Source: Aquimarina sp. MMG016
GTDB taxonomy: Bacteria; Bacteroidota; Bacteroidia; Flavobacteriales; Flavobacteriaceae
DNA: 64,000 nt
Direction of reading: 5' to 3'
Assembly (NCBI RefSeq): GCF_018100805.1
Contig: NZ_JAGJEA010000005.1
Span: forward strand, 124,001-188,000
Shown here: one piece after another, positions 37,824 through 42,255 of the stretch
Position numbering within the stretch: the stretch's first letter is position 1
How the letters are laid out: the number at the start of each line of letters is the position of its first letter
Notes under the pieces: generated by a model
Told to the model about the DNA's origin: nothing
The model's input: only the letters and a program-made list of their open reading frames with translations
The model's database searches: none
Program-made: the position numbers and the translations under genes

Positions 37824-37853
37824 TGTTTAAACATTTTAAAATAATATTAAACA
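37824..37853. promoter_or_regulatory. Inverted repeat TGTTTAA-N16-TTAAACA, site 1
   Basis: TGTTTAA at 37824-37830 and TTAAACA at 37847-37853. The arms and the 16-base spacing are the same as at 41097-41126. A -7-like TATCTTTA follows at 37859, and the start codon is at 37880. Confidence 0.65.
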
Positions 37854-37879
37854 TTTTGTATCTTTATGAAAAAAGAGAT

Positions 37880-38101
37880 ATGGAACTTATTGACAAAGCT
37901 TTAGAGTTCGAAAGTAGAAAGATGAGCAATATGACCACCAGTGATAGGGTAGCGGCTTCAAGAGAAGCTAAGGCACTTGTTTTAGCGATTAACGAAGTCT
38001 ACAAGAAAACAAAAGACTCAAAATTGATGGATGTTATGAAATCGCTCACTGCAAAAAAAAGAAAAATAGAGAAACGTCTTAAAGGAGTTCCTACCGTATA
38101 G
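37880..38101 (+). CDS. Small helical protein of unknown function
   Basis: A 73-residue protein from MELIDKALEFESRKMSNMTT. Further upstream in-frame codons lie in the putative operator, so I take the ATG at 37880. It is charged, Lys-rich and probably all-helical (VAASREAKALVLAINEVYKK, LMDVMKSLTAKKRKIEKRL). No family is recognised. It is the first gene of a likely operon with the 143-residue protein (30 bases downstream) and the DUF2237 gene, behind inverted-repeat site 1. Confidence 0.7.
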   Translation: MELIDKALEFESRKMSNMTTSDRVAASREAKALVLAINEVYKKTKDSKLMDVMKSLTAKKRKIEKRLKGVPTV

Positions 38102-38131
38102 ACTAACAATAATAATTAAGAATTCTCCAAA

Positions 38132-38563
38132 ATGTTATTAGAAACTACGTATAGTAATAAGAAAAACAAAGAGCTTATCAATGATCTGGTTGGAAAGCCC
38201 TTTTCCTTATTGAGTTCTATGAAACTTAAAGGTGTTGGTTCTAAGCGCATGATCATAGAGGATGTGAGTCCTAATTTGAAAAAATATCTGAATACCGTTT
38301 CAGATGTAAACTATGGCAGTATAGAGTTAAGACCTGGTGGAATTTTGATAGCGATTAATAAAGGGTTACAAAACTTCACTTGGGTAATCCCCTACTACCA
38401 ATTTTATCTTTATAAAACAAACGGGATTAGTATTCACGCACAAGGTAAATTTGTTCATTTTAGAAATAATCGTACGCATCAAGAAAATGCTCCTTTTTTT
38501 AAGAAGTTAACACGATTAAAAACGGAATATGATCAAAGGTTCCCACATGTGGACTCTATTTAA
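38132..38563 (+). CDS. Conserved-looking protein, unknown function
   Basis: A 143-residue soluble protein. Mixed alpha/beta pattern: LLSSMKLKGVGSKRMIIEDV, YGSIELRPGGILIAINKGL, NFTWVIPYYQFYLYKTN and a His-rich tail (SIHAQGKFVHFRNNRTHQ). I do not recognise it. It lies 30 bases after the small helical protein gene and 27 before the DUF2237 gene, in the same direction, which suggests one transcript. Confidence 0.75.
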   Translation: MLLETTYSNKKNKELINDLVGKPFSLLSSMKLKGVGSKRMIIEDVSPNLKKYLNTVSDVNYGSIELRPGGILIAINKGLQNFTWVIPYYQFYLYKTNGISIHAQGKFVHFRNNRTHQENAPFFKKLTRLKTEYDQRFPHVDSI

Positions 38564-38590
38564 CATTCTTCAATTTAAATCAAAGTATAT

Positions 38591-38962
38591 ATGGCTACAG
38601 AACTGAATGTATTAGGAAGCCAACTACAGCCTTGTTGTTATGAACCAATGACAGGATATTTTAGAGACGGGTTTTGTAGAACTACTGCAGAGGATACTGG
38701 TACACATACTGTTTGTGCAGTAGTGACCTCAGCGTTTTTAGCATACACCAAATCTAAAGGGAATGATCTGTCTACACCAATGCCTTATTGGAATTTTCCT
38801 GGATTAAAACCAGGCGACAAATGGTGTTTATGTATTTCAAGGTGGCTGCAAGCCAAAAAAGCTGGAAAAGCACCGCTCATTATACTAGAAAGTTGTCATC
38901 GAAAAACTTTAGAATATACTGATATTGAAACCTTACTGGAATATAAACACACAACACTATAA
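38591..38962 (+). CDS. DUF2237 family protein
   Basis: A 123-residue protein that closely follows the DUF2237 pattern: LQPCCYEPMTGYFRDGFC, TGTHTVCAVVTSAFLAY, KSKGNDLSTPMP and LKPGDKWCLCISRW. Six Cys residues occur in pairs, but no metal or redox role has been proved. It ends 11 bases from the end of the convergent oxidoreductase gene. Its operon partners and the upstream inverted repeat suggest joint control with the neighbouring stress-type genes. Confidence 0.88.
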   Translation: MATELNVLGSQLQPCCYEPMTGYFRDGFCRTTAEDTGTHTVCAVVTSAFLAYTKSKGNDLSTPMPYWNFPGLKPGDKWCLCISRWLQAKKAGKAPLIILESCHRKTLEYTDIETLLEYKHTTL

Positions 38963-38973
38963 GGAATCCGTTT

Positions 38974-40254
38974 CTAATTAAATTCTGACGTGAATTCTTC
39001 TACAATCAAGCCATCTTCTAACGTTTTAATAATACCCAGAGCAGCTCGCTCACCCGATATCATCGCTGCGTTTAAAGATCCATTAAGCAATTGATCTCCT
39101 GCTAGAAAAATTCTACTGGTTAGCTTTGTTTCTGTTTCTGAAAGCTCGTATTGTAGGTTTTGTAATTTTGGCAACGCCTGTTTGATATAATAATGCTTTA
39201 TAAACCTACATCCATTAATCCCACAATATTTACCTAATTCTTCGACAACCTTTTCTATCAACTCTTTTTCGCTGAATTGATGATCTTTAACTACAGTTAC
39301 CGAAAGAAGCTCTTTCTTAGGAGTAGATGAAGTTGTTAAACTGGTGTGATAAAAAATATTATTTATCAAAGCTTCTTCATTAGCAATAAGACCAATTAAC
39401 GGTTTATCAATTACTCTATGATCAACCTCAAAATACAAAGTATCACAAGATTTCCATTCCATCTCCTGATTATTGAGATTAGCAATCAACTGATGTGCCT
39501 GTGAAGTGACGATAGTAAAATCACTTTTTAGCTCTTCGCCATTATCTAGGAATACACTTCCATCGATCACTTGTTTTACCGGAGAATTAAATAGAAATTT
39601 TGTTTTCCCTAATTTTGAAACTAATTGATGTACAATCTTCTCGATACCATCTTTTGGAAGTGCAGCATAGCCTTCACCAAACATTTTATACACAAACTGA
39701 AACATACGACTGGATGTTTCTAGATTTGGCTCTAAAAAAATACCACTAAAGAAAGGTCTAAAAAAATCATGAATCATTTCTTCAGAAAAACTATAATTCT
39801 GTAAATACTTTAATGTTGTGGTTTCATTTTTATTGAAGATATCAGCTATTGATTTTTTCTTCAACATAGTATTGAGTCGTAGCACCCTTACTTTGTCAGA
39901 AAAATTCCCAATATTAGAAAACAATGTCGGAATCAGAAGAGATGGATTGCGAAGCGGATCACCAACGGTTTTTAGCTTTCCCTTGGTAAAAATCGACGCT
40001 CCGGATAAAAACTTTTGTAGCGATAACTTATCGAAATCCAGATATTTCTGAGCTGCCGGATATGCCGTTAATAAAACCTGAAAACCATGATCTAATTGAT
40101 ATCCATCTATGATATCGGTTTTTACACGACCACCTGCACGATCAGTAGCTTCTATAATCACAGGCGAATATCCATGATTTTCTAATATTTGAGCTGCAAT
40201 TAAACCACTAATACCGGCGCCAACAATATGAATTTTATATGCTTCTTTTTTCAT
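38974..40254 (-). CDS. FAD-dependent amine-oxidase-fold protein (protoporphyrinogen/phytoene oxidase-like)
   Basis: A 426-residue flavoprotein. The dinucleotide-binding motif is HIVGAGISGLIAAQILENHG with the acidic strand end VIIEATDRAGGRV; DHGFQVLLTAYP follows, as in a conserved group of short NAD(P)/FAD amine-oxidase-like proteins. A C-terminal FAD-binding patch reads RIFLAGDQLLNGSLNAAMIS. The substrate is unknown; related genes are often found in light- or carotenoid-linked clusters. A degenerate version of the TGTTTAA-N16 inverted repeat lies 102-131 bases upstream. Confidence 0.88.
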   Translation of the reverse strand: MKKEAYKIHIVGAGISGLIAAQILENHGYSPVIIEATDRAGGRVKTDIIDGYQLDHGFQVLLTAYPAAQKYLDFDKLSLQKFLSGASIFTKGKLKTVGDPLRNPSLLIPTLFSNIGNFSDKVRVLRLNTMLKKKSIADIFNKNETTTLKYLQNYSFSEEMIHDFFRPFFSGIFLEPNLETSSRMFQFVYKMFGEGYAALPKDGIEKIVHQLVSKLGKTKFLFNSPVKQVIDGSVFLDNGEELKSDFTIVTSQAHQLIANLNNQEMEWKSCDTLYFEVDHRVIDKPLIGLIANEEALINNIFYHTSLTTSSTPKKELLSVTVVKDHQFSEKELIEKVVEELGKYCGINGCRFIKHYYIKQALPKLQNLQYELSETETKLTSRIFLAGDQLLNGSLNAAMISGERAALGIIKTLEDGLIVEEFTSEFN

Positions 40255-40724
40255 ACATCATGTATTTTGATATGTATATAAAAATTTGGTTTACCTCACA
40301 ATTTCAAATGATAAAAAGTATTCCAAGTTGCTAATAATAGTACTTTATTAATTTTTGTTTAGTCTAAAAACTGAGGTATCAAACGATTCACAAAAACCAA
40401 GTTAAATGCCTTATACGGCTATAAATTTTATAACTTACGTGAAATTTATTAGATACAATTAAGAACTTTATGAGCACATTCTTAATGGGCTTTACGAGTT
40501 GTTTTTCATATTATAATCCTCAGAGAATGACTGTAATCAATAAATAAACAAAATTGTTATGGCAAGTCAGTCTTATAGTCCGGAATTTATGACTGTGCCT
40601 TTGGGGATTTTTTAGATTTAATTTATTTAGTTTTCAAGCTTTTATCTTATTACATCTTTGTTTCTTAATGATAATAGAAGTTAATTGACATCATCATCAA
40701 CCAAATAAAAATATCTATCCAAGG
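40255..40724. other. Gene-free spacer
   Basis: 470 bases between the oxidoreductase start and the tiny membrane-protein genes. The only structure I see is the inverted-repeat candidate at 40356-40385. The rest is AT-rich with frequent stops. Confidence 0.6.
40356..40385. promoter_or_regulatory. Degenerate inverted repeat TGTTTAG-N16-TCAAACG, site 3
   Basis: TGTTTAG at 40356-40362 and TCAAACG at 40379-40385, again exactly 16 bases apart. It matches 11 of 14 arm positions of sites 1 and 2. It lies upstream of the FAD oxidoreductase gene. Confidence 0.4.
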
Positions 40725-40832
40725 CTAATCATTTTTTTGATTATAATTCTTATTGTAAGACCTTATTACAAAAACAATCCAGGCCAGAAAAATAGTGGTA
40801 ACTACTATAGAATATAAAATAACTGGATCCAT
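40725..40832 (-). CDS. 35-residue single-helix membrane protein
   Basis: The ORF starts MDPVILYSIVVTTIFLAWIV, continues FVIRSYNKNYNQ and stops at 40725. It has one membrane helix (about 4-23) and a short basic/polar tail on the cytoplasmic side. Its ATG comes 2 bases after the stop of the 59-residue membrane protein, so translation of the two is likely coupled. Tiny proteins of this kind often regulate or stabilise a larger membrane partner. Confidence 0.6.
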   Translation of the reverse strand: MDPVILYSIVVTTIFLAWIVFVIRSYNKNYNQKND

Positions 40833-40834
40833 TA

Positions 40835-41014
40835 CTAGTTGCTTTTAAAATAATTAAGAAAACCTAAAATTGTAGGAGCCCATAGACCAATAAAAATAGC
40901 TTCAAGATGTCTGCCACTGCTGAATGAATAGTGTGATAAACAAATAACTCCTATAACAGTTAATAGCATGATGATGTTCATCATACCCACTTTTTTTATA
41001 AAGTTTTTAATCAT
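40835..41014 (-). CDS. 59-residue membrane protein, two helices
   Basis: From the ATG at 41014 (a TTG two codons earlier is a weaker start): MIKNFIKKVGMMNIIMLLTV. Two helices (about 11-29 and 38-54, AIFIGLWAPTILGFLNYF) are joined by a short loop with SHYSFSSGRH. It is the first gene of a two-gene unit with the 35-residue protein. The divergent gap to the QueD homologue holds inverted-repeat site 2, so all three may be controlled together. Confidence 0.7.
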   Translation of the reverse strand: MIKNFIKKVGMMNIIMLLTVIGVICLSHYSFSSGRHLEAIFIGLWAPTILGFLNYFKSN

Positions 41015-41096
41015 GTTCAAGATAGTGAATTAAATTTTACTTTGGTTCAATCATCTCGGGATCATTTTAAAGTATACGCTCTTATGTTTGTAGTTT

Positions 41097-41126
41097 TGTT
41101 TAAACTATTGTTAAAAACATTAAACA
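41097..41126. promoter_or_regulatory. Inverted repeat TGTTTAA-N16-TTAAACA, site 2
   Basis: TGTTTAA at 41097-41103 and TTAAACA at 41120-41126. The left context TTTTGTTTAAAC is also identical to site 1. It lies between the tiny membrane genes (minus) and the QueD/PTPS gene (plus). Confidence 0.65.
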
Positions 41127-41225
41127 AATATACAATATACTTTAACTTTACCAAAATATATTAAAAAATAACCCAAAAGACTTTGCATTAACAGGTGTCA
41201 TTATCTCTAAAAATTTTCATTACAA

Positions 41226-41663
41226 ATGATTGATAAAGTAGAAAACTTTTCTGAAAGAAAAATCGCCATCATTAGAAGAGAACATTTTAATGCAGCTCAT
41301 AGACTACATAATCCTAATTGGAACGAAGAAAAAAACAAAAAGATTTTTGGTAAATGTAATAATCCCAACTATCACGGTCATAATTATGAACTGGAAGTTA
41401 AAGTTATTGGTTACGTCCAACCAGAAACCGGATATGTTATTGACACTAAGATATTATCAGACCTTATTAAAGAAAAAATAACTGACCGTTTTGATCATAA
41501 AAACTTGAATTTGGATGTCGCAGAATTTAAAAATTTAAATCCTACTGCCGAAAACATTGCAATTGTGACTTATAACATATTAAGAGAGCATTTAAATAAA
41601 GAGCTAGAACTTAAAATAAAGCTATACGAAACTCCAAGAAATTATGTGGAATACCCTTATTAG
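41226..41663 (+). CDS. 6-pyruvoyl-tetrahydropterin synthase / QueD family protein
   Basis: A 145-residue T-fold enzyme. The zinc ligands are His25 (FNAAHRLHN) and His50/His52 (NYHGHNY), with catalytic Cys44 in FGKCNNPN. Later blocks are FDHKNLNLD and KLYETPRNYVEY with the pterin-anchoring Glu. The family either makes 6-pyruvoyltetrahydropterin or the queuosine precursor CPH4. The context (GPx next, no other queuosine genes) hints at a pterin product, but this cannot be decided from sequence. Same direction as, and 55 bases before, glutathione peroxidase. Confidence 0.92.
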   Translation: MIDKVENFSERKIAIIRREHFNAAHRLHNPNWNEEKNKKIFGKCNNPNYHGHNYELEVKVIGYVQPETGYVIDTKILSDLIKEKITDRFDHKNLNLDVAEFKNLNPTAENIAIVTYNILREHLNKELELKIKLYETPRNYVEYPY

Positions 41664-41718
41664 CCCTAATATATTGTATTTGATATAAATTATGGTGAAC
41701 TACCTCAAACGTTAAACT

Positions 41719-42255
41719 ATGAAAATCATTAATAAAATTAAGACTGCTCCTAAAAAATCAAGCCATACAATTTCAAAATTTGCTGAACCTATTTACAATA
41801 TCAAAATAAATAGTTTAGAAGGTAAGATTATTAACCTTACAGATTTTAAAGGAAAAAAGATATTATTTGTCAATGTAGCATCTAAATGTGGTTTTACAAG
41901 CCAATATAAAGATTTACAAAAACTATATAACACATATGAAGATAGGTTGATGATTATAGGGGTTCCTTGTAATCAATTTGGTAAGCAAGAACCAGGAAGT
42001 GCTTCTGAAATTCAATCATTTTGTGAACGTAATTATGGGGTAAACTTTATAATAACTGAAAAGATTGATGTGAAAGGAAGTAATCAACACCCGCTATATG
42101 ATTGGTTAACTAGTAAACAAAAAAATGGTAAGAAAAATTCAAGTGTAAAATGGAATTTTCAGAAATACCTGATTGATGAACACGGTGAACTCATGGATTA
42201 TTATTTTTCGACCACAAGTCCAATGAGTTCAAAAATCACAAAGCACCTCAAATAA
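41719..42255 (+). CDS. Glutathione peroxidase family protein
   Basis: A 178-residue thioredoxin-fold peroxidase. The catalytic residues are visible: Cys57 in NVASKCGFTSQY, Gln90 in CNQFGKQEPGS, and Trp145-Asn146 in VKWNFQKYL. Cys57 instead of selenocysteine is normal for bacteria, which usually couple the enzyme to thioredoxin. The N-terminal about 22 residues are an extra basic stretch without a clear signal peptide. It probably forms an operon with the QueD-like gene. Confidence 0.94.
   Translation: MKIINKIKTAPKKSSHTISKFAEPIYNIKINSLEGKIINLTDFKGKKILFVNVASKCGFTSQYKDLQKLYNTYEDRLMIIGVPCNQFGKQEPGSASEIQSFCERNYGVNFIITEKIDVKGSNQHPLYDWLTSKQKNGKKNSSVKWNFQKYLIDEHGELMDYYFSTTSPMSSKITKHLK

Follow-up and report, generated by a model that had tools for sequence, protein, structure and literature searches.

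Three copies of an inverted repeat, TGTTTAR-N16-TYAAACR, are located in a stretch of 64,000 nucleotides from Aquimarina sp. MMG016, a member of the Flavobacteriaceae (contig NZ_JAGJEA010000005.1, positions 124,001 to 188,000; hereafter the window). Comparative analysis indicated, with a probability that we put at about 0.8, that this motif serves as the operator for a B12-binding MerR-family regulator of the CarH/LitR type, which would be a light-released dark repressor of a dispersed regulon. In the dark, CarH bound to adenosylcobalamin (AdoCbl) would sit on the dyad and block RNA polymerase; blue or green light would break the Co-C bond, the CarH oligomer would come apart, and the regulon would be transcribed. 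The proposed regulon includes photolyases, rhodopsin and retinal synthesis, carotenoid genes, pterin genes (FolE, PTPS and SDR), peroxidases and methionine sulfoxide reductase and, in the window, two proteins of 73 and 143 residues (p73 and p143), a DUF2237 protein and, less surely, an FAD-dependent amine-oxidase-like protein (FADox). We infer light as the signal, repression in the dark as its sign, and the joint expression of the members from sequence comparisons. The initial annotation of the window had proposed a light or oxidative-stress regulon, perhaps under MerR/CarH control, and this proposal largely holds, given the co-occurrence of CarH with the sites and the photolyase and carotenoid targets.

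Motif occurrence and co-occurrence with CarH

The window scan recovered the three sites where the initial annotation had placed them (Table 1), each without a mismatch to its pattern. In 300 first-order Markov simulations of the 64-kb window the mean number of sites was 0.02, and none of the simulations reached the three observed. Among 31 spacings tried in the window, N16 gave three matches, N4 gave one, and all others gave none. The possibility that the motif is as frequent in random spacers is contradicted by this N16 lock and by the simulations. The site upstream of FADox had been described as degenerate; it is exact under the IUPAC code, yet it differs at three positions from the strict motif TGTTTAA-N16-TTAAACA, and its support comes from the promoters of relatives.

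The Aquimarina sp. MMG016 genome (5.35 Mb, 33 contigs) contains nine exact matches to the IUPAC pattern, three of them in the 3.3-kb part of the window that holds operators 1 to 3. The strict motif, searched genome-wide at spacings 4 to 34, was found at 15 places, with N16 accounting for seven, N17 for two and N15 for one, and a reversed control pattern summed over the same spacings gave four places. The exact motif and the Aquimarina CarH protein were then searched for in 199 genomes of the family, representing 198 genera and mostly one genome per genus. This survey yielded 581 exact sites, compared with 25 for the reversed control, and 157 of the 199 genomes have a site.

That the repeats are AT-rich chance repeats without function was ruled out by the N16 lock, the window simulations and the 581 sites against 25 reversed controls, which leave this explanation a negligible probability. 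What speaks for it is that matches with two or three mismatches are no commoner than expected: the window held 74 matches with up to three mismatches versus 95.5 expected, and the genome held 321/325 matches with up to two mismatches versus 362/385 for the reversed control. Degenerate matches therefore carry no meaning on their own, and those with two or more mismatches were never taken as stand-alone evidence.

The distribution of sites followed that of CarH. A close CarH (E ≤ 1e-64) was found in 150 genomes, 147 of which have sites, and a divergent CarH (E 1e-42 to 1e-49) in 11 genomes, four of which have sites. Sites were present in six of the 38 genomes without CarH, and all six are assemblies that are 73-88% complete.

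Another regulator might bind the motif while CarH merely co-occurs, the best candidate being TetR_C_23, whose own gene follows a site at a distance of about 30 bp in many genomes; TetR genes were located behind sites in 10 sampled loci. Genomes with both a close CarH and TetR have sites in 117 of 119 cases, and two incomplete, CarH-free TetR genomes have six (G079) and three (G147) sites. However, sites are still present in 30 of the 31 genomes with a close CarH but no TetR and absent from the three genomes with TetR but without any CarH (G059, G158 and G180). Furthermore, the helix-operator covariation and the start-codon site described below are specific to CarH. TetR_C_23 was rejected as the main binder on the counts of CarH-only and TetR-only genomes, and we consider a different binder very improbable. 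The TetR_C_23 and ABC1 kinase-like pair found behind a site is a possible second-tier regulator.

The CarH-type regulator and its own putative operator

Three MerR_1 genes were found in the Aquimarina genome, and one of these, located outside the window at C9:55194-56087 on the minus strand, is of the CarH type. Its open frame has 308 codons, 298 of them from a GTG start. The N-terminus of the protein is a MerR helix-turn-helix (PF13411, E 5.4e-15; also PF00376), and the four-helix B12-binding_2 domain is present (PF02607, E 5.5e-8). Of 56 distinct CarH sequences, 55 have W-x9-EH and 54 have the axial histidine motif ExHxxG; this protein has both, and its ExHxxG aligns with that of Thermus thermophilus CarH. 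A phytoene-desaturase-like gene, as read from the sequence, lies directly behind carH on the same strand, and its homologues adjoin carH in 11 sampled genomes.

Sites in relatives were sampled from the first 17 other genomes listed and from one locus each of 12 more, giving 81 sites in a set that is not random. In 11 of these 29 genomes, carH and crtI have a site between them. The initial annotation had advised scanning for the motif near photolyase, phytoene and MerR genes; photolyases were indeed found behind or near sites, and in relatives sites precede phytoene desaturase and lie on the start of the MerR-type B12-binding regulator.

The region upstream of carH was compared in 44 distinct close-type loci (45 with one genome doubled), comprising the 30 nearest CarH, 11 with a site beside carH and four from exception genomes; in four of the 44, the position assumed for the start codon holds neither ATG nor GTG. 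The spacer between the end of TGTTTAA and the start codon measures exactly 16 nt in 34 of the 44 loci, and in 38 if one mismatch is allowed; for the 30 nearest carH genes these numbers are 25 and 29. Each of the other gaps up to 44 gave at most one exact or two near matches. The first codons of carH, usually ATGAACA (two mismatches from TTAAACA), occupy the place of the right half-site. In Aquimarina sp. MMG016 the sequence is TGTTTAA-N16-GTGAACA, and an N26 pair at C9:56071 was dropped in favour of the N16 site at the same place, whose end falls in the GTG start codon. The start of CarH (ATGAACA, Met-Asn-Asn/Lys/Ile/Arg; L068-L097) may thus be fixed partly by the overlapping operator, which would be a case of dual coding.

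A variant site, TGTCTAA-N16-TTAGACA (C-type, as distinct from the T-type above), was first met in two genomes among the six closest PTPS orthologues. It is present in 10 of the 199 genomes, namely in five of the 11 with a divergent CarH versus five of the 188 others (p 4e-5, uncorrected for kinship), and with up to one mismatch it is found within 300 bp upstream of seven of 12 divergent carH genes. The recognition helix reads TIRIWE in close CarH and mostly TLRKWE in divergent CarH. Residue 26 was compared in 46 CarH proteins of 45 genomes, a non-random set made up of the 30 nearest, the divergent ones and a few exceptions. Of the 34 proteins with Ile26, 33 were accompanied by T-type sites, and these 33 include the divergent Ile26 proteins of G007 and G025. 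Lys26 was accompanied by exact C-type sites in six of 10 cases and by one T-type site each in two, and the genomes with the single Val26 and the single Ala26 CarH are both without T-type sites.

We consider it fairly probable, with less confidence than in the operator assignment itself, that a B12 photoreceptor of the CarH type controls a global, dispersed light regulon throughout the Flavobacteriaceae via a new operator of head-to-head half-sites 16 bp apart, that its own operator lies inside the carH start codon, and that residue 26 reads the fourth base of the half-site, with Ile recognising T and Lys recognising C.

Several observations weigh against these conclusions. The second (Rossmann-type) B12-binding domain gave no Pfam match at E 1e-3 in the Aquimarina CarH. 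The NCBIfam CarH equivalog NF052513 scored 70.1 bits versus a cut-off of 400, so the protein is not the same equivalog and was filed as CarH/LitR-like at the family level. Three genomes with a close CarH have no T-type site; two of these encode Ala26 (G092) and Val26 (G135), and the third (G020) encodes Ile26, has no site and is unexplained. An Ile26 genome, G185, has a C-type site before carH in addition to two T-type sites. Neither a T-type nor a C-type exact site is present in the Lys26 genomes G014, G040 and G098, and G028 and G168 are the two with one T-type site each. Three of the best 80 p143 loci described below (L263, L267 and L321) have no site. Finally, the genome comparisons were kept mostly to one genome per genus, and the association counts ignore kinship.

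Promoter geometry and the probable signal

Flavobacterial sigma-A promoters are described as having TAnnTTTG at about -12 to -5 (PMC9723704). Of the 81 sampled sites, three were dropped because no downstream gene was in range or a contig end was near. Over the 78 oriented sites that remained, TAnnTTTG starts at site position 16 in 24 sites, at 36 in 13 and at -5 in eight, and at most twice elsewhere. If the box is taken to end at -5, the start point falls within the right half-site in the first register; in the second register the right half-site is located from -24 to -18, and in the third it is the left half-site that overlaps the box. All three registers would hinder RNA polymerase. The occurrence of several registers fits blocking better, since a MerR-style activator would want one register. 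Recognition of the motif by an extracytoplasmic function (ECF) sigma factor was set aside, since the motif, being a dyad, serves both directions and the TAnnTTTG sigma-A boxes lie at fixed positions.

It is also possible, but unlikely, that CarH binds the motif and that its signal is the supply of coenzyme B12 or oxidative stress, or that CarH is partly an activator, a role suggested for a MerR-like protein of Vibrio cholerae (PMC5241685). The peroxidases and MsrA in the regulon and the divergent sensor domain would suit another signal, and light is itself deduced from the comparisons. In contrast, the targets that can be recognised are mainly photolyase, rhodopsin, retinal and carotenoid genes, and W-x9-EH, which is crucial for CarH photochemistry (PMC8156234), is kept. 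The several promoter registers likewise fit blocking better than activation of the MerR type.

Proposed regulon members and relation to known systems

Genes flanking the sites in the Aquimarina genome were read from the sequence; part of them were named by Pfam, and the names of the others are based on resemblance to proteins of the same genome or on the reading itself. Two tandem sites on C31 lie between genes for a beta-carotene 15,15'-dioxygenase (PF15461) and a bacteriorhodopsin-like protein (PF01036). A site at C28:208869 precedes a same-strand run of a photolyase gene, two further photolyase/cryptochrome-like genes, DUF2805 and DUF2452, and a site at C28:216185 precedes folE. An N17 site on C8 precedes SRPBCC-SDR-photolyase-SnoaL, and an N15 site at C29:51748 precedes a paralogue of p73. 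The genome has three photolyase-domain genes: one directly behind a site, one clustered with it, and one third in the same-strand run behind the N17 site. Other sites lie between the TetR_C_23-ABC1-kinase pair and htpG (C11:59289; L021), between a MarR-like gene and an outer-membrane-type gene (C23), and at C7:15486 and C13:24364. Weaker sites with one mismatch were located before msrA-folE (C12) and between bcp and nth (C3), both of which are exact in other genomes (L153 and L057, respectively), and 87 bp before a four-domain fasciclin protein on C32. MsrA matches were missed in the annotation of the sampled-site neighbours, and MsrA at L153 was recognised by eye. The presence of FolE, PTPS and SDR in one regulon would resemble the three steps of tetrahydrobiopterin synthesis.

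Secreted proteins of the FAS1 (fasciclin) type were the largest gene group found behind the sites of relatives, accounting for 17 of 109 flanking genes (by blastp clustering and by eye), and the Aquimarina protein on C32 (L028:1185-3023) has four FAS1 domains by Pfam. Because the algal FAS1 protein AstaP binds carotenoids (PMC10147662), light-induced bacterial FAS1 carotenoid carriers are conceivable. A conserved MnmA-like gene of 395-402 residues (tRNA thiouridylase, by eye), perhaps a mere neighbour, is divergent from the FAS1-type gene across the site at L056, L062, L063, L113, L115, L121, L124, L135, L144 and L159.

Table 1. Features of the window around the three putative operators
Feature	Position	Strand	Remarks
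Operator 1, putative (TGTTTAAACATTTTAAAATAATATTAAACA)	37824..37853	.	Exact match; precedes the p73-p143-DUF2237 run
TAnnTTT box of operator 1 (TATCTTTA)	starts at site position 36		
p73, 73 residues, function unknown, predicted three helices	37880..38101	+	AlphaFold2 predicted local distance difference test (pLDDT) 87.5
p143, 143 residues, function unknown, predicted PH-like fold	38132..38563	+	pLDDT 90.9
DUF2237 protein	38591..38962	+	Pfam PF09996
FADox, FAD-dependent amine-oxidase-like protein	38974..40254	-	Pfam PF01593
Operator 2, putative, before FADox	40356..40385	.	Differs from the strict motif at three positions; less certain than operators 1 and 3
TM61, small membrane-type protein	40835..41020	-	Divergent from the PTPS gene across operator 3
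Operator 3, putative (TGTTTAAACTATTGTTAAAAACATTAAACA)	41097..41126	.	Exact match; between TM61 and PTPS-GPx
QueD/PTPS-type pterin synthase	41226..41663	+	Pfam PF01242; second genome copy
Glutathione peroxidase-type protein (GPx)	41719..42255	+	Pfam PF00255

The p143 family has at least 554 relatives in the genome collection scanned, and the following figures rest on the best 80 loci, 21 of them from Aquimarina. A site with up to one mismatch lies upstream of p143 or of the p73-p143 pair in 77 of these loci: 61 exact and nine one-mismatch sites within 400 bp, and seven before p73 within 900 bp upstream. Other spacings, counted within 400 bp at up to one mismatch, reached at most eight of the 80 loci (N6). 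Searches by tblastn, in which paralogues hit each other, found p73 within 5 kb of p143 in 68 of the 80 loci, photolyase/cryptochrome, FolE, SRPBCC and SDR in 57 each, DUF2805 in 55, GPx in 52, DUF2237 in 11 and FADox in nine. In most relatives, therefore, p143, p73 and GPx belong to a photolyase cluster. In Aquimarina this set is more scattered, and its pieces still carry the site.

The A. latercula locus L253 shows synteny with the window, and all three sites are conserved in it (zero, one and zero mismatches, respectively); operator 3 is letter-identical there and TM61, which has no Pfam match, is conserved with it. The PTPS gene behind operator 3 is one of two copies in the genome. Among the 30 best PTPS loci (one of which, L214, is cut at one end), it and its six nearest orthologues all have a site with up to two mismatches, and the other 23 have none. 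A conserved 177-residue gene (CIA30-like, by eye) is divergent from folE across an exact operator in Aquimarina loci L255, L260 and L262.

FADox is the least certain member of the proposed regulon, and each of its NCBIfam matches is far under the cut-off. In 23 loci of its family (24 less the incomplete L186), four have a site with up to two mismatches at N16, versus zero to two at each other spacing. The orthologous promoters of A. amphilecti (L252) and A. latercula (L253) have zero and one mismatch, respectively. Of the eight FADox loci in Aquimarina, two have a site directly, two are in a same-strand run behind a site (L258 and L260), three have none and one is cut.

The initial annotation's expectation of several uncharacterised members is supported by p73, p143 and DUF2237 behind operator 1. 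Neither p73 nor p143 had a Pfam or NCBIfam match. The model of p143 is a barrel with a C-terminal helix, and the matches listed by Foldseek are mostly PH domains and weak (best E 6e-3, template modelling (TM) score about 0.4-0.5). Comparison of p143 with PDB sequences gave nothing convincing (best E 0.05) and comparison with PHROGs gave no match, and p73 had one weak PHROGs match of unknown function (E 0.0016). On these predictions p143 is a candidate PH-like protein and p73 a putative three-helix protein. DUF2237 is reported to be enriched in rhodopsin-bearing flavobacteria, and a Synechocystis knockout moved less in phototaxis assays (PMC5932025). A regulon shared with rhodopsin would provide a regulatory reason for the DUF2237-rhodopsin correlation.

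The regulator resembles the CarH proteins of T. thermophilus, Bacillus megaterium and Myxococcus xanthus (class I LitR) in its MerR domain and B12-binding region, W-x9-EH and axial-histidine motif, as well as in its linkage to carotenoid genes and in an operator that overlaps the promoter. Along the whole protein, the similarity to T. thermophilus CarH is low (phmmer E 2.8e-12). In the CarH operators known so far, 11-bp direct repeats, nAnnTnnACAn, are arranged in tandem and overlap the promoter (PMC8156234), whereas the dyad described here consists of two inverted half-sites, TTAAACA, 16 bp apart, each containing the same core TnnACA. The reading head thus looks conserved and the arrangement differs, so that the operator would be a new variant among characterised CarH sites; the predicted regulon is also larger and more dispersed than those of class I.

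Class II LitR of Pseudomonas (PplR1 and PmlR2) likewise has a light regulon with PhrB, FolE and CryB, which it represses through two TGTACA hexamers at the promoter (PMC9758184). Its sites, T(G/A)TACA-N12-TGTA(C/T)A, have the hexamers N12 apart, in contrast to TGTTTA-N18-TAAACA here, and the protein, which has a LOV protein as its partner, has retained the four-helix bundle alone (PMC9758184). In V. cholerae, a MerR-like gene that shares an operon with a photolyase gene takes part in blue-light regulation, but, unlike the regulator proposed here, its product works beside the ChrR-sigmaE pathway, and the passages considered describe no operator dyad for it (PMC5241685). In the carotenoid cluster of Nonlabens spongiae, a MerR-family gene is listed first (PMC11855829). 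Among the matches listed in the open-access literature, judged by title, opening of the abstract or excerpt, no description of the motif or of a Flavobacteriaceae CarH regulon was found, and an earlier description elsewhere is possible.

In conclusion, the short motif can be scanned for in any of these genomes and makes the proposed regulon directly testable. DUF2237 and two nameless protein families are placed in a likely photoprotection programme, and the difference between this putative operator and characterised CarH sites would bear on how this family of photoreceptors recognises DNA.

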